A DNA stretch of 44,600 nt from Dehalococcoidia bacterium (lineage in GTDB: Bacteria; Chloroflexota; Dehalococcoidia; Lucifugimonadales; Lucifugimonadaceae), in the NCBI GenBank assembly GCA_002708085.1, contig PAOU01000007.1, forward strand, positions 52,419-97,018. The letters are read 5' to 3'. The notes under the pieces were generated by a model, which saw only the letters and a list, made by a program, of their open reading frames with translations, had not been told where the DNA came from and searched no databases. The position numbers and the translations under genes are program-made. Below are positions 6,401-24,184 of the stretch, piece after piece. Position 1 is the stretch's first letter, and every line of letters begins with the position of its first letter.

Positions 6401-7768
6401 TTGAAATTTTACGATAGTTTAGATAAGAAAAAGAAAGATTTAGATATAAAAAATCAAAAAGTAACTATCTACGTATGTGGAGTTACCACTTCAGATTATT
6501 CTCATTTGGGCCATGCATTTTCTTCAATGGTGTTCGAGGTTCTTCAAAAATATTTGGAATATAAAAAAATTCAAGTTACTAGAATCCAGAATTTCACAGA
6601 TGTCGATGACAAAATAATTGCTAAAGCTATTAAAGAAGAATTGACTATGAATCAAGTTTCTGAAAAATATATTAATGCTTTTATTGAAGATATGGATAAA
6701 TTAAAAATTAAAAAAGCAGACTCTTATCCTAAAGCAACTGATGAAATTCCAAATATTATTAATTTTATAAAAAAATTAGAAAGTAAAGGTTTTACTTATA
6801 ACTTGAATGGCAGTGTGTATTTCAAAGTAAAGAACAAAGAAGATTATGGTAAATTGAGCAGAAGAGATTTAGATAACATTGTTCAGGGAACTAGAGTAGA
6901 CATTGAAGAAAACAAACAACACCCTGGAGATTTTGCCTTATGGAAGAAATCTAAAGATGATGAGCCTTTTTGGGATTCCCCTTGGGGTAAAGGTAGGCCT
7001 GGTTGGCATATTGAATGTAGTTCTATGGTAATGACTAATTTTGGAAGTTCTGTTGATATTCATGGAGGAGGTTTAGATCTTTTATTTCCTCATCATGAGA
7101 ATGAAATAGCACAGTCTGAAGCAATTACTGGAGATAGATTTGCTAAATTTTGGATGCATAATGGATTGCTAAAAATTTCTGGAGATAAGATGAGTAAATC
7201 TACTGGAAATCTTATAAGGCTTAGAGATGCTTTGGAAATTCATTCTCCTAATTCTTTGAGATTATGGATGTTAAGTTCTCATTATAGAAATCCAATTCTT
7301 TACGATAAGAAAAACATTATTGCTCAATCTAAAGCCCTTAAAAGATTAAGAGAAGCAACACTCATTTCTAATACAGGAAATACTCATTCAAATTTTTCAG
7401 TTAAAAAATACAGAGAAGTTTTTGAAAAATATATGGATGATGATTTAAATACTCCTAAGGCTCTAAGTGTTTTATTTGATTTGTCTAGAGAAATAAATAA
7501 GTTGAATTCATTAGGGAAAGAAATTCAAGAAGCACAGAGGTTATTAAAAGAACTTGCAATGATTTTAGGATTAGATTTAGATAAAGATGAAGAGGAAGAA
7601 AAAATAGAAATTGATGAAGTTTACATAGATCACTTAATCAAAAAGAGAAATCAGTTTAGAAAAGAAAAATTATTTAAAGAAGCTGATGAAACTAGAGAAG
7701 AATTAAAAAAAATGGGAGTTGAAATTAGAGATTCTCAACAAGGAACTGTTTGGAAAAAAATTAGTTAA
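6401..7768 (+). CDS. cysS: Cysteinyl-tRNA synthetase
   Basis: 'YVCGVTTSDYSHLGHAFSSM', 'GRPGWHIECSSM', 'KMSKSTGN'. TTG start. Confidence 0.93.
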   Translation: MKFYDSLDKKKKDLDIKNQKVTIYVCGVTTSDYSHLGHAFSSMVFEVLQKYLEYKKIQVTRIQNFTDVDDKIIAKAIKEELTMNQVSEKYINAFIEDMDKLKIKKADSYPKATDEIPNIINFIKKLESKGFTYNLNGSVYFKVKNKEDYGKLSRRDLDNIVQGTRVDIEENKQHPGDFALWKKSKDDEPFWDSPWGKGRPGWHIECSSMVMTNFGSSVDIHGGGLDLLFPHHENEIAQSEAITGDRFAKFWMHNGLLKISGDKMSKSTGNLIRLRDALEIHSPNSLRLWMLSSHYRNPILYDKKNIIAQSKALKRLREATLISNTGNTHSNFSVKKYREVFEKYMDDDLNTPKALSVLFDLSREINKLNSLGKEIQEAQRLLKELAMILGLDLDKDEEEEKIEIDEVYIDHLIKKRNQFRKEKLFKEADETREELKKMGVEIRDSQQGTVWKKIS

Positions 7769-7970
7769 ACCTTACATTAAGTACAGCTACTACTACGAAA
7801 ATTATACCCAAGATTATAGTTGATCTGAATAATGTTCTTTCAAAGCCTCTTCTTACTCTGAATGAATTTTCTCCTTGTCCAAAAAGTGCAGTGCCTGTGC
7901 CTCGAACTTGAAGCAAAATTACAATTATTAATAGTACTGAAACAATTATTTCTATGATACTGTAAATCAT
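7761..7970 (-). CDS. secG: Preprotein translocase subunit SecG
   Basis: 69 aa, two TM segments around 'LLQVRGTGTALFGQGENSFRVRRGFER'. Confidence 0.85.
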   Translation of the reverse strand: MIYSIIEIIVSVLLIIVILLQVRGTGTALFGQGENSFRVRRGFERTLFRSTIILGIIFVVVAVLNVRFN

Positions 7971-8000
7971 TTTTCTCCTCTATTTATTAACAACATACTA

Positions 8001-8948
8001 TCAATAATTTAAAATTTCAAAAATAGCATTTGAAAGTTTATCAGGATCATGATGACCCTTGAAATTCATATTCATTAAATCTGAGTATTTTACTTCAATA
8101 TCAGAAGAATTGAAATTTTCATGTATTACACATGTGCTTGTTGGGAATTCTTCACCTAATTCTTCAATTCTTGAATTTACCAATATTGAAGATATTTTTA
8201 AGTCTGGAGCAAATTTTTTGATTGATTTTAGATGAGATATTGCATCATAATTTGTTGTTTCTCCAAGTTGTGTAGCTATATTACATACATAAATTACTGG
8301 ATTTTTAGTATTGTTAATTTCTTCAATAATTTCTGGGACTAATAAATTTGGAATAATACTAGTGTATAGACTTCCTGGACCAATAATTATTACATCTGAA
8401 TCTTTAATAGCTTTTAAAGCTTGAGAAGAAGGTGTTACATTATTAGGATTTAATTTTATATCAATTATACTTGAATTTGAGTTAGTTATTTCACTTTCTC
8501 CTTCTACAATGATTCCATCTTTCAATTTTGCAACTAAATTTACTTGTTCAAATGTAGAAGGGATCAGTTGACCAGTAACATTAAGTACCTTACTTGATTC
8601 TTTAATTGCTTTATCAAAACTACCAGTCACTTTCTCCATAGCCATAATGAATAAATTTCCAAATGAATGTCCATTCAATTCTGAGTTACTTTCAAATCTA
8701 TATTGGAATAATTCTTTTAATAAAGGTTCTGCGTCTGATAAAGCTACTAGACAATTTCTAAAATCTCCAGGAGGAAGAATCCCATATTCTTTCCTTAGCC
8801 TACCTGAACTGCCTCCATTATCTGCGACAGTTATTACTGCAGTTAAATCTACGGGTTTTGTACGTAAAGCTCTTAGTAAAGTTGAAAGACCTGTGCCACC
8901 ACCAATTCCAACAATTTTTTTATTTTTTTGTGAATTAGTTTTTGACAT
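8001..8948 (-). CDS. yvcK: YvcK/CofD-like protein (gluconeogenesis factor family)
   Basis: 'KIVGIGGGTGLSTLLRALR', 'TVADNGGSSGRLRKEYGILPPGDFRNCLVALS', 'GPGSLYTSIIPNLLVPEI'. Confidence 0.9.
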   Translation of the reverse strand: MSKTNSQKNKKIVGIGGGTGLSTLLRALRTKPVDLTAVITVADNGGSSGRLRKEYGILPPGDFRNCLVALSDAEPLLKELFQYRFESNSELNGHSFGNLFIMAMEKVTGSFDKAIKESSKVLNVTGQLIPSTFEQVNLVAKLKDGIIVEGESEITNSNSSIIDIKLNPNNVTPSSQALKAIKDSDVIIIGPGSLYTSIIPNLLVPEIIEEINNTKNPVIYVCNIATQLGETTNYDAISHLKSIKKFAPDLKISSILVNSRIEELGEEFPTSTCVIHENFNSSDIEVKYSDLMNMNFKGHHDPDKLSNAIFEILNY

Positions 8949-8950
8949 TT

Positions 8951-10420
8951 TTACTTTCGTAAATCTTGGAGTTTTTCTTTGATTACTGATTCCGAAATTT
9001 TAGGATCTGCTTTACCTTTAGAAATTTTCATAATCTGACCAACTAAGAATTTTATTACTGTTTCCTTACCAGACAAGTAATCTTTAATAGCATCAGGATT
9101 AACTTTTATAACTTCAGAAGCAATTTCTGAGAGTCCTTCAACATCTTGAATCTTTTTTAAACCTTTTGTTTCAACAATATTTTTAGGGTTTTTTTTAGTT
9201 TTAAACATTTCTAATAGTACTTCTTTTGCTACTGCATTGCTTATTTCTCTTTTTTGGAACATTTCTATTAGTTCACGAAGGTCTTGTGGCGAAATTTCCA
9301 GTTCATTTATGTTTTTAATCTGATTATTATTCATTAGACGTAATACTTCTCCGTTAAGCCAATTTGCTGTTTCTTTACTAAATTCATGTAGTTGATTTTT
9401 AGGAGAATTACTAAATTTCTGAATAACTTTTTCAAAATATTTTGAAATATTCATAGAAGAAGTGAGCAATTTTGAGTCATATTCTGATAAACCATAATCA
9501 TTACAAAATCTATCAGTTTTTTCAGAAGGTAATTCGGGTAAAGTATCTTTTATTGATTTTATCCATTCAAAGTCAAATTTGAAAATCGGGATATCTGGTT
9601 CTGGAAAATACCTATAATCATGAGCATCTTCTTTGGATCTTTGTGAAATACTAATTCCTTTTTCATCATCCCAACCTCTAGTTTCTTGTATAACTCTATT
9701 TCCTGATTCAGTAACCTTTATTTGTCTTTTAGTCTCAAAATCTATAGCTCTAGTTACAGCTTTAATTCGATTCATATTTTTTATTTCTACTCTATCGTTT
9801 AGCACATTGGAGTTTTTAGGTTTGACGCTAATGTTAGCATCACATCTAAAACTACCTTCTTCCATACTTGCAGATCCGATTTCTAAGTATTGAATAATTG
9901 ATTGGAGTTTCGAAATATATGATTCTGTTTCATCAGTAGTTCTTAAATCAGGTTCAGATACAACTTCTAGAAGGGGAACACCAGCTCTATTTACATCCAT
10001 TAATGTAGATTCTTCATTTGGGATAGCATTATGAATTAATTTAGCTACATCTTCTTCCATGTGAACTCTATTAATTCTAATATTTTTACTATCTGAAATT
10101 TTCATATTACCACTAAACGCTATAGGCTGATCAAACTGGGAAATTTGATATCCTTTCATAAGATCAGGATAAGAATAATTTTTTCTGTCAAATTTTGTGA
10201 TATGAGCAATTTCGCAATCTAATGCTAGCCCTAGTTTTATAGCAGATTCTATTGCTGTTTTATTTACTACTGGTAAAGATCCAGGTAATGCTAAACATAC
10301 AGGACATACAAATGTGTTAGGCTCTTGATTTTGGTAGTTATTGGGACAACTACAGAACATCTTACTTTTAGTGTTTAATTGAACATGAATTTCTAAACCT
10401 ATTACTGTGTCATATTCCAA
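8951..10420 (-). CDS. gatB: Asp/Glu-tRNA amidotransferase subunit B
   Basis: 'YDTVIGLEIHVQLNTKSKMFCSC', 'DYRYFPEPDIP', C-terminal YqeY-like domain. Track starts at 10498; TTG at 10420 fits the conserved N-terminus better. Confidence 0.93.
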   Translation of the reverse strand: MEYDTVIGLEIHVQLNTKSKMFCSCPNNYQNQEPNTFVCPVCLALPGSLPVVNKTAIESAIKLGLALDCEIAHITKFDRKNYSYPDLMKGYQISQFDQPIAFSGNMKISDSKNIRINRVHMEEDVAKLIHNAIPNEESTLMDVNRAGVPLLEVVSEPDLRTTDETESYISKLQSIIQYLEIGSASMEEGSFRCDANISVKPKNSNVLNDRVEIKNMNRIKAVTRAIDFETKRQIKVTESGNRVIQETRGWDDEKGISISQRSKEDAHDYRYFPEPDIPIFKFDFEWIKSIKDTLPELPSEKTDRFCNDYGLSEYDSKLLTSSMNISKYFEKVIQKFSNSPKNQLHEFSKETANWLNGEVLRLMNNNQIKNINELEISPQDLRELIEMFQKREISNAVAKEVLLEMFKTKKNPKNIVETKGLKKIQDVEGLSEIASEVIKVNPDAIKDYLSGKETVIKFLVGQIMKISKGKADPKISESVIKEKLQDLRK

Positions 10421-10580
10421 TTTTTTTTCCCCGGATATTAAATATTTGTAATTATTGTATTGTAAACATTTTTGAATAGATAGATTACGAATATACAATA
10501 TATTTTAAATTCATAGGAATTTAATAAACAAATGAAAAATAATGAGTATAATTACAATATAATTTAATTTAGGAGGCATA

Positions 10581-12044
10581 TTGGATAAATCAAATACAAT
10601 TTCTAGAAAATCTAATATTTCGGATAAAGAATATAAGTGGGGATTTAATACTAATGTTGAGACAGATTTAGCTCCTAAAGGTCTTAATGAAGATATTGTA
10701 AGGTTAATTAGTTCGAAAAAAAACGAACCTTCTTGGATGTTAGATTGGAGATTGAAATCTTTTCTACATTGGAAAGAGAAATCTGTTTCATCTGGAGAGC
10801 CTACTTGGCCTAAAATTAATTATCCTGAAATAGATTATCAAGATATTTATTATTATGCAGCACCAGTTACAGAAGATAAGCCTAAATCATTAGATGATGT
10901 GGACCCTGAAATGTTAGAGGCTTTTGAAAAATTAGGTGTTCCACTTCAAGAAAGAGCAAAATTGGCTGGTGTAGCTGTAGATGCTGTTTTTGATAGTGTT
11001 TCTGTTGCCACTACATATGAAAAGCAATTAAAAGAATTAGGCATTATTTTTTGCTCTTTTAGTGAAGCAGTAAAAAATCATCCTGATCTTGTGAAAAAAT
11101 ATTTAGGGAGTGTTGTTCCTTATTCTGATAATTTTTTTGCAACTTTAAATTCTGCAGTTTTTAGTGATGGTTCTTTTGTATATATCCCGCCGGGTGTTAG
11201 ATGTCCTATTGAATTAATGACCTATTTTAGAATTAACACTGAAGGATCTGGTCAATTTGAAAGAACTTTAATTATTGCTGATAAAGATTCTTATGTGAGT
11301 TATTTGGAAGGTTGTACTGCTCCGATTAGAAAAAGCCATCAATTACATGCTGCAGTTGTTGAGTTAGTAGCTCTGGATAATGCTGAGATAAAATATTCTA
11401 CTCTTCAAAATTGGTATCCAGGAACAAAAGAGGGTGTAGGGGGAGTATATAATTTCGTAACAAAGCGTGGAAAATGTTTGGGAAAAAAATCAAAAATATC
11501 TTGGACTCAAGTAGAGACAGGTTCTGCCATTACTTGGAAATATCCTAGTGTATTGTTACAGGGTGATGATTCTATTGGAGAATTCTATTCTGTCGCACTA
11601 ACAAATAATCATCAACAAGCTGATACTGGGACAAAGATGATTCACATAGGTAAGAACACCAAGAGTACGATTGTTGCCAAAGGTATTTCAGCGGGATTTG
11701 GTAATAATACATATAGAGGGCAAGTTAGAGTCCTTCCGTCTGCAGATAATGCTACTAATTTCACACAATGTGATTCTCTTTTAATAGGAGATAAATGTGG
11801 TGCTCATACTGTTCCTTATATTGAGGTAAAAAATCCCACTGCTAGATTAGAGCATGAAGCTTCTACATCTAAGGTAAGTGATGATCAATTATTTTATTTA
11901 ATGCAAAGAGGAATTTCAGAAGAAGATGCTCATCATATGATAATTACAGGGTGGAGCAAGGAAGTTTTTAAGGAACTTCCTTTTGAATTTGCAATGGAAG
12001 CAGGACAATTATTGAAAGTAAGTCTAGAAGGAGCAGTCGGATAA
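10581..12044 (+). CDS. sufB: Fe-S cluster assembly protein SufB
   Basis: '[49 protein letters not shown]'; AGGAGG before TTG start. Confidence 0.95.
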
Positions 12045-12045
12045 A

Positions 12046-12786
12046 ATGTTAAAAATTAATAACTTACATGCAGAAATATTAGGTGGAGAAAAAATTCTGA
12101 ATGGAATAAATTTGAATATTAATTCAGGAGAAGTACATGCACTTATGGGTCCTAATGGAAGTGGAAAAAGTACATTGGCAAATGTAATAGCTGGTAGAGA
12201 TACTTATAATGTATCTGATGGAGAAATAATTTTTCAGAACGATGATATTTCTGAATTTTTACCTGATGAAAGATCTAGGAAAGGCATTTTTATGGCATTT
12301 CAATATCCCGCTGAAATTCCTGGTGTTAGGCCATGGCAGTTTTTAAAAGCAGCTGTTGATGCTAAAAGATTAACAGAAGGACAAAAAGAAATGTCTGTAA
12401 GAGAATTTTCTTCATTTTTTGATGAAAAAGCTAAAGAAGTAGGCATAAACTCTAATTTATTAAAAAGATCATTAAATGAAGGCTTTTCAGGTGGTGAGAA
12501 AAAAAGAAATGAAATGCTACAGATGTTAGTTCTTCAACCCAAGTTATGTGTTATGGATGAAACTGATTCAGGATTAGATGTTGATGCTTTAAAAACTGTT
12601 GCTCAAGCAGTTAATGGATTAACTGATTCTAATAGATCTTTTTTGATTGTTACTCATTATCAGAGATTACTTGATTACATAAAACCAGATTTTGTTCATA
12701 TTCTTGTAAATGGGAAAATAGTTAATTCAGGTGACTATGAATTAGCATTAGAAATAGAAAAATCAGGATATGAAACTTACCTATGA
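12046..12786 (+). CDS. sufC: Fe-S assembly ATPase SufC
   Basis: 'ALMGPNGSGKSTLANVIAG', 'FSGGEKKRNEMLQML', 'DETDSGLDVDAL'. Confidence 0.95.
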   Translation: MLKINNLHAEILGGEKILNGINLNINSGEVHALMGPNGSGKSTLANVIAGRDTYNVSDGEIIFQNDDISEFLPDERSRKGIFMAFQYPAEIPGVRPWQFLKAAVDAKRLTEGQKEMSVREFSSFFDEKAKEVGINSNLLKRSLNEGFSGGEKKRNEMLQMLVLQPKLCVMDETDSGLDVDALKTVAQAVNGLTDSNRSFLIVTHYQRLLDYIKPDFVHILVNGKIVNSGDYELALEIEKSGYETYL

Positions 12787-14105
12787 CACTTGATCACTTA
12801 GAAAATTATTTAAAAGTTTTTGAGGAAATTAATAAATCTTCAGTTATTAATGGAAAACCTGATTTACAAAATTACAGAAAGAAAAATTGGGATGAATTCG
12901 TAAAAACAGGCATTCCAGTACAAAGGCGTGGTAATGAAAGATGGAAGTATACTAACTTGAAACCTCTTTTGGATTTATTTCAGACTCCTATTAAAATAAA
13001 TGATGAAGATTTAAAAAAATACTTAGAATCCAATATTCCTGTTTTAGATGATCAAATATTAATTGTCTTAGTTAATGGAATGTTTTCCAAAAATCTCTCA
13101 TCTAATTTTGAAAATATCAAAGGTTTTAATTTAATTACATTAGATGATTCTATTTTTGAGATAGATGAATTTTATAAAAACTCTAAACTTAATCAAGATC
13201 CTTTTATTTCTCTTAATTATGCTTGTTTGAGTGATGTTATTAAAATAAATGTTGAAAAAAATGATTCCGATGCAGTTATTAATGTTGTATATGTTTCTGT
13301 TGGAGATAATTCTAAAAAAACTATAAATAACCCTAGAGTTTTAATATCAGGAGAAAAAGAATCATCCTTTTCTTTAATTGAAACGTATTTAGAAATTTCT
13401 GATTCATCTAATTCTAATTTTAGCAATTGTGTTACAGAGATAATTCTAAAAGAAGATTCTTTGTTAAATCATTATAGAATTTTATTAGAACAGAATGATT
13501 CTTTCCATATTGGAAATACTAGAGTATATCAATCTAAAGGAAGTGAATTTAATTCTATATCTTATTCACGCTCTCCTCAGATTGGTAGCAATGAAATAAA
13601 AGTTCATTTACAAGGTAGTGAAAGTAAATGTACTTTAAATGGTTTATATATTACTACTGGAACTCAACATATGGTAAACGATATTAGCATTAACCATGAA
13701 AAGCCTAATTCAGAAAGTCATCAGTACTTTAAAGGAATTTTATCTGGTAAGTCTAGAGCTATTTTTAGTGGAAAAGTTTTAGTAGAGAAAGATGCCCAGA
13801 AAACTTTTGCGGATCAAAAAGATTTAAACTTGTTACTTTCAAAAGGTGCAGAAATAGACACGAAACCAAGTTTGGAAATTTATGCTGATGACGTTCAATG
13901 TACTCATGGGGCTACTGCTGGACATGTTGATAAAGATACGTTGTTTTATCTCATGTCTAGAGGGTTAGACAAGAAAACTGCAACTGGATTATTGATTAAA
14001 GGTTTTGCTGATGAGATTATAAATAATATTTTATTAGATGAACTTAAATCTTTTGTTCATAATGATTTAGCAAATATTCTTCCAGAATTAAATTTTGAGG
14101 GATAA
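12783..14105 (+). CDS. sufD: Fe-S assembly protein SufD
   Basis: SufBD C-terminal core 'DVQCTHGATAGHVDKDTLFYLMSRGLDKKTATGLLIKGF'; overlaps sufC by 4 bp. Confidence 0.92.
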   Translation: MTLDHLENYLKVFEEINKSSVINGKPDLQNYRKKNWDEFVKTGIPVQRRGNERWKYTNLKPLLDLFQTPIKINDEDLKKYLESNIPVLDDQILIVLVNGMFSKNLSSNFENIKGFNLITLDDSIFEIDEFYKNSKLNQDPFISLNYACLSDVIKINVEKNDSDAVINVVYVSVGDNSKKTINNPRVLISGEKESSFSLIETYLEISDSSNSNFSNCVTEIILKEDSLLNHYRILLEQNDSFHIGNTRVYQSKGSEFNSISYSRSPQIGSNEIKVHLQGSESKCTLNGLYITTGTQHMVNDISINHEKPNSESHQYFKGILSGKSRAIFSGKVLVEKDAQKTFADQKDLNLLLSKGAEIDTKPSLEIYADDVQCTHGATAGHVDKDTLFYLMSRGLDKKTATGLLIKGFADEIINNILLDELKSFVHNDLANILPELNFEG

Positions 14106-14110
14106 TTATT

Positions 14111-15349
14111 TTGAATAAGAATTTAGATCCTAAGAAGATTAAAAAAGATTTTCCAATTTTTGAAAGAACTATTAATGGTTACCCATTAATTTATCTTGAT
14201 AATGCTGCAACTACACAAAAACCTCAGTCTGTAATTGATTCTCTATCTTCTTATTATCAATATTCAAATGCAAATGTATTCAGAGGTGTTCATACTTTAA
14301 GTATAGAGGCTACAGATTTATATGATGAAGCTAGAAAAAAAGTTCAACAGTTTATAAAAGCTAAACATATAGAGGAAATTATTTATACTAGAAATACTTC
14401 TGAAAGTATAAATTTGGTTGCTTACAGTTGGGCTCTAAAAAATCTCAAAAAAGGAGATAAAATGTTCATTTCTCCTTTTGAGCATCATTCAAATTTAGTG
14501 CCTTGGCAGCAAATATGCCGTAAAGTAGGAGCGCAATTATTATATATTCCTTTGAATGATTCAGGAACAATTGATTGTGAAAAATTTTCAACTCAGATAG
14601 ATAAAAATACTAAACTTATATCTGTGACTCATATGTCAAATGTATTAGGTGAAATTAGTCCTATTAAAGATTTAACTGAATTGGCACATAGATTTGGAGC
14701 ATTAATTATGGTTGATGGGGCACAAAGTGTTCCTCATATGTCTATAGATGTACAAGAAATGAATTGTGATTTTCTTGCTTTTTCTTCACATAAAATGTTG
14801 GGCCCTACAGGAATAGGAGTTCTTTATGCAAAAAAAGAAATTTTGGAATCTATGGATCCATTTCTTTTTGGAGGAGACATGATAAGTGAAGTCACTTATG
14901 AAGATGCCAAGTGGAATGATTTACCTTATAAATTTGAAGCTGGTACTCCTAATATAGCTGATGCTATTGCTACAGGAATAGCTATAGATTATTTGCAAGA
15001 CATTGGAATGGAAAATGTTTTTAATCATGAAAAAAGTTTAGTTTCTTATGCATTAGAAAAATTTTCTTCTTTAGAAAATATTGATATTTTGGGTTCTCAA
15101 AATCCATCTTTGAAAGGTGGAGTGATTTCATTCAATCACAAGTTCATTCACCCTCATGATTTAGGTACAGCTTTGGATAGACATGGAATTGCTATACGTA
15201 CAGGTCATCATTGTGCAATGCCATTAATTAGAAGTTTTGGTTTAGTTGCAGCTTCTCGTGCAAGTTTTTATATTTATAATGGTAATGAAGATATTGATAA
15301 ACTAATAAATTCAATATCTGAAATAGAGGATTATTTTAAAAATGAATGA
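14111..15349 (+). CDS. sufS: Cysteine desulfurase SufS
   Basis: 'IYLDNAATTQKPQ', 'SSHKMLGPTGIGVLY', 'IRTGHHCAMPLI'. Confidence 0.95.
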   Translation: MNKNLDPKKIKKDFPIFERTINGYPLIYLDNAATTQKPQSVIDSLSSYYQYSNANVFRGVHTLSIEATDLYDEARKKVQQFIKAKHIEEIIYTRNTSESINLVAYSWALKNLKKGDKMFISPFEHHSNLVPWQQICRKVGAQLLYIPLNDSGTIDCEKFSTQIDKNTKLISVTHMSNVLGEISPIKDLTELAHRFGALIMVDGAQSVPHMSIDVQEMNCDFLAFSSHKMLGPTGIGVLYAKKEILESMDPFLFGGDMISEVTYEDAKWNDLPYKFEAGTPNIADAIATGIAIDYLQDIGMENVFNHEKSLVSYALEKFSSLENIDILGSQNPSLKGGVISFNHKFIHPHDLGTALDRHGIAIRTGHHCAMPLIRSFGLVAASRASFYIYNGNEDIDKLINSISEIEDYFKNE

Positions 15350-15776
15350 ATTTAATGAATTGGATGAAATGTATAGAGAAGTGATTCTTGATCATTATCG
15401 TTCTCCTAGAAACAATCAACCTTTACTTGAACCTACTAAAGAAATTGAGAGTAATAATCCATTTTGTGGAGATGAAATTAAATTACAACTTAAGATACAG
15501 AATGAAATTGTTACTGAAATAGGAATCTCTGGTAGAGGTTGTGCTATTAGCCAGGCATCTGCTTCGTTAATGGGAGAAGCTCTATTAGAGAAGAATATTA
15601 ATGATTCGCTTGAACTATATAGTAGTTTTAGAGAATTATTGACAGGAAATTTATCAGAAGATCAATTAGATAACTTAGGTGATTTATTAGCTCTTGAAGG
15701 TGTGAAAAAATTTCCGATCAGGGTGAAATGCGCTCTTTTATCTTGGTCTGCTTTTAATGATTTGATAGAAGTTTAA
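15342..15776 (+). CDS. sufU: Fe-S scaffold/sulfur acceptor SufU
   Basis: 'YREVILDHYRSPRNN', 'NPFCGDEI', 'GRGCAISQASASLMGEAL'. Confidence 0.92.
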   Translation: MNEFNELDEMYREVILDHYRSPRNNQPLLEPTKEIESNNPFCGDEIKLQLKIQNEIVTEIGISGRGCAISQASASLMGEALLEKNINDSLELYSSFRELLTGNLSEDQLDNLGDLLALEGVKKFPIRVKCALLSWSAFNDLIEV

Positions 15777-15786
15777 CCAAAATCAA

Positions 15787-15834
15787 TGACTCTCCAGGAT
15801 AGGATTCTAACCTATGACTAGCTGATTAACAGTT
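15787..15834 (-). pseudogene. tRNA-Asn(GTT) 3'-half remnant
   Basis: Minus strand AACTGTTAATCAGCTAGTCATAGGTTAGAATCCTATCCTGGAGAGTCA: CTGTTAA anticodon loop, T arm ATAGG-TTAGAAT-CCTAT (5-bp perfect stem), GGAG...TCA end. No acceptor 5' strand (CTCCAGG) or D arm upstream; that sequence is the end of the HpcH CDS. Confidence 0.65.
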
Positions 15835-15837
15835 ATA

Positions 15838-16653
15838 TCAATAAGGTTTTTTGGTAGCTTCATTTCCTTGATTCATAATCTTTTTATCTTTTTTTAATTG
15901 GCTAAAATCTTGATGAATTGCATTTGTTAATAAAGATGAATCACTTCCATGTAGTATGAATCTAGATCCTAGCTCTATAGAAAGCCTTGATAATTCTATA
16001 GTTGCATGATGAATCATTACAGGAATATGATGTTTTTCCGAAATTTTTATAATTTTTTTTAGTGCATTTATATATTTTTGGTGATCGAGTTCATCAGGTA
16101 TCCCCATTGAAGTAGTTAAATCATTTGGGCCAACAAAAACTCCATCCATTGGAGCACTTAATATTAAATCTTCTAAATTTTCTAGTGCAGGTTCACTTTC
16201 AATTCCTAGTATAAAAATTCTGTCTTTGTTCCTTTCATTTAAATATTTTTTAGATTTTTCATTAGGAAATTTTTTTTCATTCATTACTTTTTCTAAATAT
16301 GTTCCCTTTAATGGATTATTATAGGCTCTAGCTGAACACATTTTTACATCCTCAATTTTTTCTGTGTAAGGCACAAGAACTCCATCTGCGCCTGCATCAA
16401 TTGCCATACCTACTAATACAGGATCAGGGTTTGTGATCCTAATGATTGTTGTTATATCTAATGATTTAAACATTTGAGATAATTGGGATATTTGAGCTCT
16501 GTCTCTAGGTGCATGTTCTGCTTCAATGACTACATAATCAAGATCAGATTTAGAAAAACTTGAGCTCCATCTGGTTCCTTCTAATGCCCATATCATTGTT
16601 CCATAAACTTTTCCTCCAGATTGTAATTTTGATTTTAACTCTAATGGTTTCAT
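15838..16653 (-). CDS. HpcH/HpaI-family aldolase
   Basis: 'YVVIEAEHAPRD', 'GMAIDAGADGVLVPYTE', 'GVFVGPNDLTTSMG'. Confidence 0.88.
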   Translation of the reverse strand: MKPLELKSKLQSGGKVYGTMIWALEGTRWSSSFSKSDLDYVVIEAEHAPRDRAQISQLSQMFKSLDITTIIRITNPDPVLVGMAIDAGADGVLVPYTEKIEDVKMCSARAYNNPLKGTYLEKVMNEKKFPNEKSKKYLNERNKDRIFILGIESEPALENLEDLILSAPMDGVFVGPNDLTTSMGIPDELDHQKYINALKKIIKISEKHHIPVMIHHATIELSRLSIELGSRFILHGSDSSLLTNAIHQDFSQLKKDKKIMNQGNEATKKPY

Positions 16654-16723: not shown

Positions 16724-17893
16724 TTAATTTTTAGTTTCAATTTTTTGAGTACACATTTTTTCAATTTTTTCTTCCGAAATTTCTATACCTAATCCTGGTT
16801 TTTGGGGAACATCAAGATAACCATTATCAAACTTAAATGGTTGTGTTTCTAAAGTAATATTTTCTCGTAAAGGATTATCAGTTCTATCATATTCCATGCC
16901 GGGTTCTTGTAGGAAATGCTGAGGATTGTCCATCCTAGGAGTATTTGGAATTGTACTTGCTATATGTAAAGATGCAGCAATCATTACAGGTGTTCCCCAA
17001 ACATGAGGTATTGTTTGGATACCCATAGTAGAAGCCATATTTATAATTCTCTTGAATTCTGTAATTCCTCCAACATTAGCTACATCAGGTTGAACTATGT
17101 CATATGCTTGATTAACTAAGAAATCTTTGAATTGAGAAGATGTTCTTAAAGATTCACCCCCTGAAATTGCAATAGGAGAAATCTTTTTTAATTCAGCGTA
17201 TGAATTCCAGTCATAATAATGTAGTGGCTCTTCAAACCACAATATGTTAAATTCGGCTAGTTTTTTTAATAATTTCTTTGCAGTGTATAGATTATATGCT
17301 TGATTCGCATCAACCATTAAATAAATGTCATCTCCTATTGCTTTTCGTATTTCTTTAATTCTTTCTATGTCTGATTCTGGTTTTATGGCCCCTATTTTCA
17401 TTTTCATTCCTTTAAAACCTATTTTTTTGTAGTATTTAGCTTCATCAACTAGGTTTTTGGGAAAATCATTCTCTGAGTAATATAGACCTGTTGCGTAAGT
17501 AAGTATTTTGTCTCTTATTTTTCCACCCAATAATTCAGAAACAGGAAGATTATATGTTTTACCAGTAATGTCCCATAGTGCGATATCTATTGCACTAATA
17601 GCACATCCTCCAATTCCTACTTGTAAAACTGCATTATTTAATGCAAGGTACATCTTTTCCCATAATTTTTCTCTATTTAATGGATTTTCAGAGATAATTT
17701 GAGATTTTAAGGTGCTATGGATGACAGAAATTGTTTCTTGAGTTCCATATCCTTCTCCCCAGCCTTCTATGCCTTCGTCAGTTGAAATTTTAACAAGTAC
17801 AGCAGATCTCTTTGTTGCTTTTCCGTTTGACCACCAAAAAGGTTTTTTCAGTTGGGATTCAATAAGATAAGTTGTTATTTTAGTTATTTTCAT
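16724..17893 (-). CDS. Enolase-superfamily (mandelate racemase/muconate lactonizing-like) enzyme
   Basis: 'GMKMKIGA', 'LMVDANQAYN', 'WFEEPLHYYD', 'ISGGES', 'DIVQPDVANVGGITEF', 'IPHVWGTPV'. Confidence 0.9.
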   Translation of the reverse strand: MKITKITTYLIESQLKKPFWWSNGKATKRSAVLVKISTDEGIEGWGEGYGTQETISVIHSTLKSQIISENPLNREKLWEKMYLALNNAVLQVGIGGCAISAIDIALWDITGKTYNLPVSELLGGKIRDKILTYATGLYYSENDFPKNLVDEAKYYKKIGFKGMKMKIGAIKPESDIERIKEIRKAIGDDIYLMVDANQAYNLYTAKKLLKKLAEFNILWFEEPLHYYDWNSYAELKKISPIAISGGESLRTSSQFKDFLVNQAYDIVQPDVANVGGITEFKRIINMASTMGIQTIPHVWGTPVMIAASLHIASTIPNTPRMDNPQHFLQEPGMEYDRTDNPLRENITLETQPFKFDNGYLDVPQKPGLGIEISEEKIEKMCTQKIETKN

Positions 17894-18003
17894 GCTTTAC
17901 CTAAAACTAATTTATACTGCTTTAAAGTTTTTGTAACTAGTTGATTTTTTTTGAAAATGATAAAATGGAAAAAATTTTATTTATAAAGGAGGTGATGGAC
18001 AAG

Positions 18004-19083
18004 ATGTTTAAAAAAACATTTATAATTTGTTTATCTTTAATAATTTCCTATTCATTTTTGATATGATGTCAAGCAGAAGAAGAATCTGAAACTTCATCAG
18101 CTACTTCAGGTAGCACATTGGATGTAGTTAAAGAAAGAGGAGAACTGAAGTGTGGAGTCAATGATAATTTAACTGGATTCGGGGTTGTAATGCCTGATGG
18201 TTCATTTGAAGGATTTGATATTGATTACTGTAAAGCTATCGCGGCTGCAATTTTGGGAGATTCTAGTAAAGTAGAATATGTCCCATTAACTGCTTCTGCT
18301 AGATTTACAGCTTTAGGTTCAGGAGAAATAGATGTTTTGATTAGAAACACTACTTGGACTGCATCTCGTGATAGGGAATTAGCTCAAGATTTTACAGCTA
18401 CTACATTCTATGATGGTCAAGGCATGATGGTTTATGCTGATAGTGGATATAAGACTATTGAAGATATGTCTGGAGCTACTGTATGTGTTCTTCAAGGAAC
18501 CACTACAGAATTAAATCTTGATGATAGATTTACAAAGTCTGGCATTCCTTACACACCGTTAACATTTGAAACTAATGATCCTTTACAGGCAGCTTTTGAA
18601 GAAAAAAGATGTGATGGTTGGACTACTGATAAATCAGGACTTGCTTCCAAGAGAGCAGAATTTCCTGCATCTGCAGGTGGGCCTGATGCTCTTGTAGTAC
18701 TAGCTGAAACTCTTTCTAAAGAGCCTTTAGGACCACTTACAAGAGATAATGACAGTGAGTTTTATGATGTTGTACAGTGGGTAGTTTTTGGTATGATGCA
18801 AGCAGAAGAAAGTGGGATTAATAGTTCTAATGTTTCTTCAATGGCTGCTAATCCGAAAGACCCTGGTATGGCTAGGTTATTAGGAGTTGGTTTTGATGGT
18901 GGAGAAGTTCAAGATTTCCAATTTGGAATACCTAAAGACTTTATGCAAAAGGTTATATCACAAGTAGGAAATTATGGAGAAGTTTATGATCGGCATCTAG
19001 TTCCTTTGGGACTTACTAGAGAGGGATCATTTAATGCTCTTTGGACCGATGGCGGATTAATTTATGCTCCTCCATTTAGATAA
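18004..19083 (+). CDS. Polar amino-acid ABC transporter substrate-binding lipoprotein, interrupted by in-frame TGA at 18064-18066
   Basis: GGAGGTGATGG then ATG 18004: MFKKTFIICLSLIISYSFLI*CQAEEESETSSATSGSTLDVVKERGELKCGVNDN... in frame with track ORF 18118-19083, which has AapJ/GlnH-type SBP motifs. Confidence 0.8.
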
Positions 19084-19111
19084 ATCTTAAGATTTAAAAC
19101 TACATAAATAT

Positions 19112-19135
19112 TGTGCGTCGGAAACCCGGCGCACA
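19112..19135 (+). terminator. GC-rich intercistronic hairpin between binding protein and permease genes
   Basis: TGTGCGTCGG-AAAC-CCGGCGCACA, 10-bp stem with one T.G wobble, then AT-rich sequence. Confidence 0.7.
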
Positions 19136-19149
19136 TATTGTATTTGTAT

Positions 19150-20343
19150 ATGTTTAGAACATTTATTTTTCAGAATTTTATTGATTGGATTGATAGAATT
19201 AGTTTTCTAAGAAAAAGAAAAACTAGGAGAATATCATTCCAATTATTATTTCTTGGTTTTTTAGGTTTAATTATTTGGTATTTTGTTTCTAAGGCTTTAC
19301 AGTTAGATCTTGGTTTTAGTCATCTGAATAGTAGGGCAGGATTTGGTTTAAGCCATACTTTTTTTATAGATTACTCGAGTAATGATAGTAGATGGAAGGC
19401 TTATTTCACTGGTGTAATTAATACTATTAGAATTTGCTCTTTAGGTATCTTACTCACCACAATTTTAGGAACGATTATGGGAGTTGCTAGGCTTTCGTCT
19501 AATTTTTTAATTTCTAGAATTTCAGCATTGTATATAGAAATATTAAGAAATACTCCTTTACTCGTTCAAATAGTATTTTGGCAAATAGTATTTTTAAAAT
19601 TACCTCAAATTTCTAATGCTATAACTACAGGAGGTTATACAGCTATATCTAATAGAGGGATTTTGATTCCTTGGATTGAGGCAAATCCAAAATTTGATAT
19701 ATTTTTTGCAATAGTAGTTATTGCAATTTTAATTTCTATATTTTTAAAAGTATTTTTAAATAGAAGAGAAGAAGAAAAAGGACAAAAATTATATTCTAAT
19801 TTTATACCTTTAATAATGTTTTTTGGTATTTCTTTATTAGGCTTATTGTTTACCGGAATTCCTTTTAATTGGAATATTCCTTCGGTTGCTCAGAATGAGT
19901 TTGGGACTTATATGCAATCAGGGGGATTTGAATTATCACCAGAATTTTTGGCATTGTTATTTGCTTTGGTTTTATATACTGGTACTTTTGTAACTGAAAT
20001 TGTAAGAGGAAGTATTCAATCTCTTCCTAAAGGTCAAACTGAAGCAGCATTAGCATTAGGGTTTTCAAGTTACCAGAGAATTATTTTAGTAATTCTTCCA
20101 CAAGCATTGAGATCTATTATTCCTCCTCTTACTAACCAATATTTGAATTTAACCAAGAATTCTTCTTTAGCTGTTGTAATTGCTTATCCAGATCTTTTTA
20201 TGGTTACAAGAACTATTATTAATAACTCTGGTCATGCTCTTCCAATGTTTTTCGTTGTTCTATTTACCTATTTAAGTCTAAGTTTAATTATTTCTTTGAT
20301 AATGAATCTTTTGAATCGTCAAGTTACTAAGGTGAGGGTTTAA
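19150..20343 (+). CDS. Amino-acid ABC transporter permease (AapQ-like)
   Basis: 'NTPLLVQIVFWQIV', 'VTEIVRGSIQSLPKGQTEAALALGFSSYQRIILVILPQALR'. Track start 19111 lies in the hairpin; ATG at 19150 preferred. Confidence 0.88.
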   Translation: MFRTFIFQNFIDWIDRISFLRKRKTRRISFQLLFLGFLGLIIWYFVSKALQLDLGFSHLNSRAGFGLSHTFFIDYSSNDSRWKAYFTGVINTIRICSLGILLTTILGTIMGVARLSSNFLISRISALYIEILRNTPLLVQIVFWQIVFLKLPQISNAITTGGYTAISNRGILIPWIEANPKFDIFFAIVVIAILISIFLKVFLNRREEEKGQKLYSNFIPLIMFFGISLLGLLFTGIPFNWNIPSVAQNEFGTYMQSGGFELSPEFLALLFALVLYTGTFVTEIVRGSIQSLPKGQTEAALALGFSSYQRIILVILPQALRSIIPPLTNQYLNLTKNSSLAVVIAYPDLFMVTRTIINNSGHALPMFFVVLFTYLSLSLIISLIMNLLNRQVTKVRV

Positions 20344-21524
20344 TGAGATTAATAAATGAAATTACAAGAGATGGTTTTTTTTGGATAAAAGAAAATTTAT
20401 TTCAATCTTATCTAAATTCATTAATGACTTTATTAATTGTTGTTTTTATAGGTTATTTATTCTTAGATTTTTTAGGCTTTTTGATTAATGCAGATTGGAC
20501 TGTAGTAGAAGTAAACAGGAGACTTTTATTATTAGGAAGGTTACCTCTTGGAAATGAGATAAGAGGATGGTTAATTCTTTGGTTTTCTATGATATTAATT
20601 TCATCTTCTATAGGAATATGGGGTTCTCCAAATATAAAAGATTTTCTAATTATTTTTATTATTTCTTTAGTGATTTTCTTTATTTTTGGGACTTTAAATT
20701 CTATTTACCATATTTTAATTACTTATTTAATTTCTTTCTCTCCTTATTTCTTCTCAAAATATTTTCTTAGAAAAAAATATTTTGAATTATCAAAGAGAGT
20801 ATTAATATTTTCTTGGATTTTAATTATTCCAATTTTTATTATAATTCTTTTAATTGGAAATGGTCCTAAACCTAATCTATGGGGCGGGTTTTTACTAAAT
20901 ATTATTTTAGCTTCAGTTGCTATAGTTGCAGGGTTTCCATTGGGATTGATTTTAGGATTGGGAAGAGCAAGTTCATTCCCTGTAATTAAGATAGCTAGTA
21001 CTTTTTATATTGAAGTTATAAGAGGAGCACCTTTAGTTGCTTGGTTATTATTAGCATGGTTTGTTTTACCAACTTTTTTGCCAAATTTATTTGGTTTGAA
21101 TGAAGTAAGTATTGTTGTAAGAGCGATGATTGTATTATCTATATTTGCTAGCGCATATATTGCTGAGGTAATAAGAGGAGGATTACAGTCAATACCAAAA
21201 GGTCAATTGGAAGCAGCCGATGCTTTGGGTTTAAGTACTATAGATTCTACTTTCAATATCATATTGCCTCAAGCAATCAGAGTAGTAATACCGGCTTTAG
21301 TTAGTACATTTATTGCTATGTTTAAAGATACTTCATTAGTGTTTATACTTGCTCTTACTGATTTGTTACAAGTGGGAAGATTAATTCCTGAACAGGAACC
21401 AGAATTTTTTGGTAGGCAATTAGAAGCTTTATTAGTAGTAGCATTTTTGTTTTGGGTTGTTTCAATTTCTTTATCGAATTTAAGCTCTAGACTAGAGAAA
21501 GCTATGGGTATAGGAGTAAGATAA
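20343..21524 (+). CDS. Amino-acid ABC transporter permease (AapM-like)
   Basis: 'YIEVIRGAPLVAWLLLAWFVLP', 'IAEVIRGGLQSIPKGQLEAADALGLSTIDSTFNIILPQAIR'. Confidence 0.88.
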   Translation: MRLINEITRDGFFWIKENLFQSYLNSLMTLLIVVFIGYLFLDFLGFLINADWTVVEVNRRLLLLGRLPLGNEIRGWLILWFSMILISSSIGIWGSPNIKDFLIIFIISLVIFFIFGTLNSIYHILITYLISFSPYFFSKYFLRKKYFELSKRVLIFSWILIIPIFIIILLIGNGPKPNLWGGFLLNIILASVAIVAGFPLGLILGLGRASSFPVIKIASTFYIEVIRGAPLVAWLLLAWFVLPTFLPNLFGLNEVSIVVRAMIVLSIFASAYIAEVIRGGLQSIPKGQLEAADALGLSTIDSTFNIILPQAIRVVIPALVSTFIAMFKDTSLVFILALTDLLQVGRLIPEQEPEFFGRQLEALLVVAFLFWVVSISLSNLSSRLEKAMGIGVR

Positions 21525-21539
21525 TAGAGGAGGTTTAAA

Positions 21540-22280
21540 ATGAAAAATAAAAAAGAAATAATTATTACAGAGAATGTTGAGAAGTCATTTGGGAACTTCC
21601 AGGCTTTAAAAGGAATTACGGCAACAGTGAAAGAAAGTGAAGTTGTTGTAGTTTTTGGTCCTTCTGGTTCAGGTAAATCTACTTATATAAGAACTTTGAA
21701 TAGACTAGAATCTCATGATTCAGGAAGAATAATTATAGATGGTGTTGAACTGAACGATGATGTGAAAAACTTAGAGAAAGTTAGATCAAATGTAGGTATG
21801 GTATTTCAGTCATTTAATTTATTTCCTCATCTATCAATATTAGGGAATATTACTTTAGCTCCTAGAAAAGTTAAGAGAATGAAAAAGAAAGAAGCTGATG
21901 ATCTAGCCATGGGTTTACTTGAAAGAGTAGGTATTCCTGAACAAGCAGAAAAATTCCCAACACAACTATCTGGGGGGCAACAACAAAGAGTAGCTATAGC
22001 ACGAGCATTGGCTATGCAACCAAAAATAATGTTATTTGATGAACCAACTTCAGCATTAGATCCGGAAATGATTAAAGAAGTTTTAGATGTAATGAGGGAA
22101 CTGGCAGATTCAGGTATGACAATGATATGTGTTACCCATGAAATGGGTTTTGCAAGAGAAGTGGCAGATAGATTTCTATTTTTTGATCAAGGTTTATTGA
22201 TAGAAGAGGGTTCTCCTGATCACTTTTTTTCTAATCCTAAAGAAGATAGAACTAAACTTTTCTTGAGTCAGATATTGTAA
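21540..22280 (+). CDS. Amino-acid ABC transporter ATPase (AapP/GlnQ-like)
   Basis: '[18 protein letters not shown]', '[34 protein letters not shown]'; RBS GAGGAGG. Confidence 0.93.
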
Positions 22281-22287
22281 TATTTTC

Positions 22288-22863
22288 ATGAGTCCTTCTG
22301 AATCCTTTGAAAATATTGAAGATTATAAAAAAATAAATAGAGATTTTGAAATTGTTTTAGCAACTAGGGCCAGCAGGTTAGCAGCTAAAATATTGGATTT
22401 ATTTTTTTTTCTAGCAATGATTGTTCTTGGTTTAATGTTAGCTAGTTTTTTTGGTGAAATGAGTTTTAGAGATATGTATTTTTGGTTAATTGAGTTGCAA
22501 ACCAATGAGATTTCCACTTCTAAAAGTATTAATTCATCTCCAGAAGGATTTCAAATTTTATTGATAGTATTATCCTTTTTTTCTGTAATATTTATTCAAG
22601 CTAGGTTGTTGGTAAGAGATGGGCAGACTATAGGAAAAAAAATCATTGGAATAAAGATTATAAATGCATTTAATTTGGGTAAAGTAAAGTTGATTAACAT
22701 TATTTTTATAAGATGGATATTTTTTGAGATTCTGTCTGTTCTTCCTTTTGGAACTATTATTGTTTTAGCAGATGTTGTCTTTATTTTCAGAAAAGACAGA
22801 AGATGTCTTCATGATATGTTATCAGGTACAGTTGTATCTCAAAAAAACGAAAATCTTTCCTGA
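22288..22863 (+). CDS. RDD-family membrane protein
   Basis: 'RASRLAAKILDLFFFLAMIVLG', 'RDGQTIGKKIIGIKII', 'RRCLHDMLSGTVVS'. Confidence 0.75.
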   Translation: MSPSESFENIEDYKKINRDFEIVLATRASRLAAKILDLFFFLAMIVLGLMLASFFGEMSFRDMYFWLIELQTNEISTSKSINSSPEGFQILLIVLSFFSVIFIQARLLVRDGQTIGKKIIGIKIINAFNLGKVKLINIIFIRWIFFEILSVLPFGTIIVLADVVFIFRKDRRCLHDMLSGTVVSQKNENLS

Positions 22864-22867
22864 ATTT

Positions 22868-24184
22868 TTAAGGAGTATTTTCTTCTATTACTTTAGTTAA
22901 TTTAGTCCTTACATCATTGGATTCTAAAGTATCATCAGATTCAAAAACGGGATTTAGTTCCTCTAAATCATTTTCTAAATTAAATAATTTTCCATCATCA
23001 TATAGTTTCCATTTTTCATCTCTTGCAAAAACATATTTAAATTCTCTATTTGATCTTGCATCTCTTCGAGGATTTTTAGGATCATAATAAAAATATAACC
23101 AATCCCTAGGGTTTCCTTTTTGACCAGATAGTTGAGGAAGAAATGATTGTCCATCAATAATGAAATCATTTAAGGGTGTTTTGGTAATATCTAAAATTGT
23201 AGCTAAAATGTCAGTTGAATCTATTAAATCTAAATTGACTCCAGGGTTTATGGTTCCTGGCATAGAGCATATTAGTGGTACATGGGTACCTCTATCATTA
23301 GGTAACCCTTTCCCACCTTGAATTGAGGTAGATCCCATTTCAGAGCTTACTTCAACAGGAGTTCCATTATCTCCAATATAAATTACAAGTGTGTTTTCAC
23401 TTAAATCTAGTTCATCTAGTTTGTGAATTATTCTTCCCACTATCTTGTCATGATACTCTACCATATCCTTATAATATTTAGGGTCATCTTCCCACCCTTC
23501 AACTTCTTCAAATGTTTTTCCTTTTCCTAATGAGATATTTGTTGGAGGATCAAATTCTTCATATTCTGGACTATCTGGGGTGGGCTCAAAAGGTCTATGA
23601 GTTAGAGCCATAGGAAAATATACAAAGAAAGGTTCTTCTTGGTTTCTATCAATGAAGTCTAATATATAATCACAAAAAATATCTTCTCCATATTGGCCTT
23701 TTGTATTATCTAAATAAGATCCATTTTGGTATATAACTGGATCCTTATATCTTGAACCTTTATCTTCTGTATGATGAGCATGCCATACGCAATATTCATC
23801 AAATCCTGCATCTTCAATCTTTTGTCCTTTATTTCTCATTTGAGGTTCTACATCAGGTGGATTGTAAGAATATAATTGCCATTTTCCCGATATTAGAGTT
23901 TTATATCCAGCTTCAGTCATTATATGACCAAAGGTTTTTTCGTCTGGTTTCATTAATCCGAATCCAATATAGTTTCTAGAATTATATTTACCTGTCATAA
24001 GTTGTAATCTAGTAGGTGTACATAAGGGTTGAACATGAGCTTCTGTGAAGTTAATTCCGTCTGTTGCTAATTTATCTAATACTGGTGTTTCATAAGACGT
24101 TCCACCGTTACATCCTAATACTTCATATCCCAAATCATCTGACATTATTAAGATCACATTAGTTTTGTTGTGTTTTTTGCTCAT
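22868..24184 (-). CDS. Type I sulfatase / arylsulfatase-like
   Basis: 'NVILIMSDDLGYEVLGCNGG', active-site signature 'LCTPTRLQLMTGKYNSRNY' (CxPxR), 'IYIGDNGTP'. Confidence 0.9.
   Translation of the reverse strand: MSKKHNKTNVILIMSDDLGYEVLGCNGGTSYETPVLDKLATDGINFTEAHVQPLCTPTRLQLMTGKYNSRNYIGFGLMKPDEKTFGHIMTEAGYKTLISGKWQLYSYNPPDVEPQMRNKGQKIEDAGFDEYCVWHAHHTEDKGSRYKDPVIYQNGSYLDNTKGQYGEDIFCDYILDFIDRNQEEPFFVYFPMALTHRPFEPTPDSPEYEEFDPPTNISLGKGKTFEEVEGWEDDPKYYKDMVEYHDKIVGRIIHKLDELDLSENTLVIYIGDNGTPVEVSSEMGSTSIQGGKGLPNDRGTHVPLICSMPGTINPGVNLDLIDSTDILATILDITKTPLNDFIIDGQSFLPQLSGQKGNPRDWLYFYYDPKNPRRDARSNREFKYVFARDEKWKLYDDGKLFNLENDLEELNPVFESDDTLESNDVRTKLTKVIEENTP

Follow-up and report, generated by a model that had tools for sequence, protein, structure and literature searches.

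A decayed tRNA-Asn 3' half between sufU and a conserved aldolase gene of a marine SAR202 bacterium, possibly the attachment scar of a lost element

An insert of approximately 64 bp separates the convergent genes sufU and HpcH/HpaI aldolase in a marine SAR202 bacterium (genome G000), and its best explanation is a decayed secondary-site attachment scar of an element that has since disappeared, a reading to which a probability of roughly 0.58 can be given. The insert is situated in a window, i.e. the whole stretch of 44,600 nucleotides analysed, on contig C7 of this 687-kb genome, which is 60% complete. The junction between both genes was compared among G000, its sister species G007, and five further congeners (G001, G002, G003, G006, and G009). 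The genus genomes compared in detail are draft assemblies consisting of many contigs. The features concerned are listed in Table 1.

The main part of the insert is a stretch of 48 nt, running from the anticodon loop to the CCA end, that was confirmed as a genuine tRNA-Asn(GTT) 3' half by sequence comparison with real tRNA-Asn genes (E = 3e-12), as the first-pass annotation had read it from the CTGTTAA loop to the acceptor end. A DNA search of the family with the tRNA-Asn gene of G001 and its flank as query retrieved the window fragment with 83% identity over 68 nt (E = 3.1e-12) and the fragment of G007 with an E-value of 2e-15, and the reverse search with the window fragment retrieved intact tRNA-Asn(GTT) genes in G001, G002, G005, and G009. 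Without gaps, the window matched at 35/46 positions at best, compared with at most 28/46 for 300 shuffled queries (mean 24.8, standard deviation 0.9). The window fragment is decayed, with one inserted base and a C56A change in the T loop, the latter already noted from the window alone. The G007 fragment is less decayed, matching tRNA-Asn at 42/46 positions with C56 still in place. In the fragment alignment, the 5' half of the window fragment was at chance level, indicating that it is not an intact, functional tRNA gene. Accordingly, tRNA detection programs were silent on the fragment because of the absent 5' half: ARAGORN called zero tRNA genes over the window, and a permissive Rfam scan of positions 15600-16000 gave no tRNA match. 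A genome-wide RF00005 search of G000 returned the fragment as the only hit below the threshold, with a score of 11.9 bits and an E-value of 7.8 (model positions 43-63). Relaxing the ARAGORN thresholds gave spurious calls in the hundreds, which were discarded. An intact tRNA-Asn gene and a second copy of the 48-mer were also searched for in G000, and neither was found in this 60%-complete assembly, in which 13 tRNA genes are present. A 19-nt match on G000:C5 was rejected as a second copy, since it was short and weak (E = 0.44), with only a tRNA-Leu at that locus. In a search with the G001 gene, tRNA-Asn was absent from the assemblies of G004, G006, and G008 as well.

Table 1. Features at and around the sufU/aldolase junction (window coordinates) and cassettes at the tRNA-Asn-crcB hotspot (locus coordinates)
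Feature	Position	Strand	Remarks
sufB-sufC-sufD-sufS	10581..15349	+	Core Fe-S operon; open reading frames; gene order identical in relatives
sufU (NifU_N, PF01592)	15342..15776	+	Ends in DLIEV*; relatives end in DLIDQY*, one residue longer
Insert of ~64 bp	15771..15834	-	tRNA-Asn(GTT) 3' half, anticodon loop onwards, followed by a 3' trailer of ~16-18 nt
tRNA-Asn 3' half	15787..15834	-	Anticodon loop CTGTTAA, variable region, T arm ATAGG/CCTAT, acceptor 3' strand; TCA replaces CCA
HpcH/HpaI aldolase (PF03328)	15838..16653	-	Ancestral convergent neighbour of sufU in the genus; KPY* intact
MR_MLE enolase-superfamily racemase/dehydratase	16724..17893	-	Start of the lineage-specific block, only in G000 and G007
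ABC amino-acid-type transporter	18118..22280	+	SBP_bac_3, two permeases, ATPase
RDD protein and sulfatase	22288..24184	+ (RDD), - (sulfatase)	Directly after the aldolase in relatives
Hotspot cassettes	L161 (G002:C42) 148-2334; L077/L080 (G005); L079 (G009) 9924-11387; L078 (G001) 7464-10879		One to three genes

Comparison of the junction among the seven genomes revealed a clean insertion. In the five species without the insert, the site is empty and the stop codons of sufU and the convergent aldolase gene overlap by 4 bp (TTAA/CTAG). In G000 and G007, the insert occupies the identical junction and splits this overlap. Read in the orientation of the tRNA, with slashes at the insertion point, the empty site of G006 is ..ATTAATAT/TTATCTATC.. 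and the filled site of G000 is ..ATTGATAT/64 bp/TTCTATC... The KPY* C-terminus of the aldolase was left unchanged and SufU became one residue shorter, its present stop codon apparently being supplied by the trailer of the insert. The gap between both stop codons measures 61 bp (15777-15837), instead of the 59 bp first given. A target-site duplication was sought at the insert, and none was visible; direct GTTAA repeats flank the insert at both ends, although repeats of this length carry no weight in AT-rich DNA. Furthermore, a trailer of approximately 10-13 nt past the CCA end is common to the window fragment, G001, and the G005 remnant. This shared stretch, albeit short and AT-rich, suggests that DNA and not a mature tRNA was copied.

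Fragments of the same kind occur elsewhere in the family. In an alignment of 12 of them, that of the window included, the upstream part was near chance level (1-11/25 matches), the anticodon loop and the 3' part were mostly intact, and the 5' breakpoint was common. In most of the fragments, homology to the tRNA starts at the anticodon loop, as expected of an integrase attachment site of the anticodon-loop type. Within the genus, every other 3' half is located downstream of tRNA-Asn, the copy in the window and G007 alone being found off this position. The distance from tRNA-Asn to a gene presumed from sequence resemblance to be crcB is 1 bp in G003 and 56 bp in G007, the intact tRNA-Asn gene of the latter adjoining crcB on a different contig from the fragment, as opposed to approximately 11.8 kb in G001, approximately 11.4 kb in G005, and at least 10 kb in G002, each size being derived from a single contig. 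Further tRNA-Asn 3' halves are present within the G001 and G005 intervals, of which the genes differ, and three 3' halves in G002 (C42:148, 1492, and 2289) enclose a racemase gene and a gene encoding 219 amino acids. The racemase cassette has tRNA-Asn sequence on both sides, and no recombination genes, in G002 (3' halves C42:148 and 1492), in G005 (at the end of contig C11, where it closes on tRNA-Asn sequence), and in G009 (where it closes on a decayed half, L079:11342-11387). In G001, a trio of Alpha-E, ATP-grasp, and proteasome-like genes is flanked by tRNA-Asn and by a shorter 3' remnant (T arm). Judged from these gene orders, the sister species seem to have a hotspot of cassette insertion and turnover between tRNA-Asn and crcB.

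Integrase genes near such fragments were found in other genera. G112 carries an apparent island of approximately 24 kb on one contig (L163/L164, G112:C78:93-24129), comprising an intact tRNA-Asn gene, a 434-aa tyrosine integrase, and a 3' half at the far end. Similarly, a 382-aa integrase is located 130 bp from a 3' half in G055, which belongs to another genus, and integrase fragments lie beside tRNA-Asn or its halves in G020 and G011. The sole integrase-family match of G000 (335 aa) is on contig C11, none being present near the fragment on C7. Those integrases of the genus that are not of the Xer type were rejected as neighbours of tRNA-Asn, as the copies of G002 and G008 adjoin tRNA-Met and the G007 contig contains tRNA-Pro. 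The G002 and G008 genes encode 369-aa integrase-family proteins and are convergent with, and directly downstream of, tRNA-Met in an identical gene context (L218 7657-8863; L221 7589-8791), each possibly representing a resident tRNA-Met integrase. Two further 3' halves, on G054:C110 and on G107:C107, may lie off the hotspot, no relative being alignable across either locus. A tRNA-Asn-like second copy is present approximately 0.7 kb downstream of the intact gene in G059:C178 (L167 3698-3771), its T-arm region being replaced by unrelated sequence.

As to the source of the insert, two types of tRNA-Asn anticodon stem were encountered. Type A (GCTGA/TCAGC) was found in G001, G002, G005, and G009, and slightly altered forms of it occur in the other genera sampled. 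Type B (CGATCGG/CCGAT) was found in G003 and G007 (L171 9957-10031 and L172 6576-6650, for G007 and G003, respectively), although G003 groups with the type A species in the protein tree. The remnant of G007 resembles type A, unlike the present tRNA-Asn gene of G007 itself; the scar would be either older than the change to type B or derived from a type A carrier. In both type B genomes the tRNA-Asn-crcB hotspot is empty, a correlation based on two genomes of type B and four of type A. It might be speculated that, with the primary site removed by the type B stem, an incoming element was diverted to sufU as a secondary site and left a type A half behind as its scar, although this is rather improbable. 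Elements of this family would then recognise the tRNA-Asn anticodon stem-loop as their site, and the change in tRNA sequence would act as immunity to integration.

The reading of the insert as an attachment scar is supported by the empty versus filled site, the common breakpoint, the hotspot, the nearby integrases in other genera, and the trailer past the CCA end. An element integrating at tRNA-Asn by means of a tyrosine integrase, with crossover in the anticodon loop, would have brought along a tRNA-Asn segment and entered a secondary site at the sufU/aldolase junction; upon later loss of the element, only the tRNA 3' half forming one of its ends would have remained. Such an origin from an integrase attachment site had been proposed at first pass and is plausible in view of the hotspot in sister species and the common anticodon-loop breakpoint, the accompanying island boundary being unsupported. 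The absence of an integrase, a second att half, cargo, or a visible target duplication at the junction counts against a scar, as does the fact that this off-hotspot copy is the only one of the genus. The likeness of the junction to an attB site, judged by eye, extends to approximately five of seven overlap positions at best, and a search of viral_contigs for the free element with a single type A att pattern gave zero matches. The main rival explanation is ectopic copying without an integrase, either of a piece of approximately 64 bp of the tRNA-Asn locus into a break, as filler DNA or by template switching, or of a tRNA 3' half by reverse transcription. Both the small, clean insert without cargo or target duplication and the sole off-hotspot copy in the genus are in line with this explanation, and nuclease cleavage in the anticodon loop would yield the same 5' end. 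However, the identical 5' breakpoint is found in other fragments that are tied to the hotspot or located near integrases, and the mature-tRNA route in particular does not fit a copy that continues past the CCA end into a trailer resembling genomic flank. The common breakpoint and the trailer thus weigh against ectopic copying, which is considered unlikely.

The remaining explanations concern the surroundings, the age, and a possible role of the insert. On the view suggested at first pass, an island would start with the aldolase gene and the insert would be the tRNA 3' half displaced to its far end, gene content changing at this point from core to accessory genes. Indeed, a lineage-specific block of racemase and ABC transporter genes (16724-22280) occurs approximately 0.9 kb from the fragment in G000 and G007. 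Yet, this block starts beyond the aldolase gene, between the latter and the RDD gene, and local scans revealed no tRNA fragment at either of its ends or anywhere else in the window. Moreover, the order sufU-aldolase-RDD-sulfatase is kept, without the fragment, in 5/5 other species checked (G001, G002, G003, G006, and G009), and the aldolase occurs family-wide (71/76 genomes match with an E-value no higher than 1e-20, mostly by clear orthologues), that of the window being closest to the genus orthologues. Hence, as far as gene order indicates, the fragment is not an island edge and does not divide core genes from an island; the conserved sufU-aldolase synteny, which the first-pass annotation itself had named as evidence against its proposal, largely refutes the latter, leaving it very improbable. 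Confinement of both fragment and block to the same two genomes could also reflect a single event, in which an incoming element with att, aldolase, racemase, and transporter genes replaced the resident aldolase gene by homologous recombination. This is hard to reconcile with an aldolase identity to relatives of 54-60%, in line with the 49-63% of the flanking sufU and sufS, and with the ancestral KPY* end, so that there is little to recommend it. Regarding age, a six-protein tree placed G000 and G007 together as sister to the other five species, this split being fully supported, so that parsimony alone is neutral on whether the fragment dates back to the genus ancestor and was subsequently deleted in those five. 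Fourfold-site identity, however, is 69% between G000 and G007 and 38%, thus near saturation, between G000 and G003. As the G007 copy still matches at 42/46 positions, free drift since the genus ancestor is hardly possible; such an old fragment is highly improbable, and the sequences indicate that insertion most likely took place on the G000/G007 stem. Finally, retention of the insert as a terminator acting in both directions, on sufU and on the aldolase gene, would explain its position between convergent genes, the retained T-arm hairpin, and an identity between G000 and G007 of approximately 86%, counted from the alignment, versus 69% at fourfold sites. Its folding was no better than that of shuffled sequences on either strand (z -1.0 to 0.65), no terminator was called at the insert by prediction, and its divergence, judged by eye, is similar to that of the neighbouring aldolase-racemase spacer and hence no good sign of constraint, making this role extremely doubtful. 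The fragment is decayed and without sign of function. Within the neighbouring block, G007 keeps the ABC ATPase beside the racemase but not the solute-binding protein and both permeases (window 18118-21524 versus L076 8463-8608), reflecting either a three-gene deletion or a three-gene gain.

SAR202 bacteria are known for large families of enzyme paralogues, and to our knowledge their route of gene gain is little described. No dedicated paper on SAR202 islands at tRNA genes or on a tRNA-Asn-crcB hotspot was found in the open-access literature searched. The scar itself is minor, but it corrects a tempting yet wrong island call, and the junction offers a clean, roughly dated pair of empty and filled insertion sites. 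The hotspot is more useful than the scar, metabolic cassettes apparently being turned over at tRNA-Asn-crcB in streamlined SAR202 genomes.

The putative scar belongs to an already known kind and is not a new system. Displaced tDNA fragments having sites centred on the anticodon are a standard feature of tRNA-targeted islands (Islander, PMC4383910). The 3' fragment starting from the anticodon loop (subsite A) corresponds to these islands, as does the G112 island, bracketed by an intact tRNA-Asn gene and a fragment with an integrase inside; in contrast, the window locus has no intact tRNA gene, integrase, or island, the fragment alone being inserted. Use of a secondary site by an element with a preferred attB is described for SGI1 (PMC2297512), an element that is still present, unlike the one for which only a scar is found here, so that we infer the link. 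Within the same class, Dehalococcoidia, the ssrA islands of Dehalococcoides consist of modules arrayed in tandem downstream of a single RNA gene, the 3' end of which is repeated between them, and many modules lack integration genes and were called possible cis-mobilizable elements (PMC3146451). Tandem modules with 3'-end repeats of an RNA gene are found at tRNA-Asn too, although the ssrA islands make use of tmRNA, with a site in the T loop and a recombinase of the serine type, whereas the present case involves tRNA-Asn, an anticodon-loop breakpoint, and nearby integrases of the tyrosine type. Likewise, additive flexible islands of Methylophilaceae carry the final 20 nt of tRNA-Lys as repeats and contain cargo units down to 330 bp (PMC10872708); the tRNA and the phylum differ, but these too are pelagic, streamlined genomes with small cargo bounded by tRNA-end repeats.
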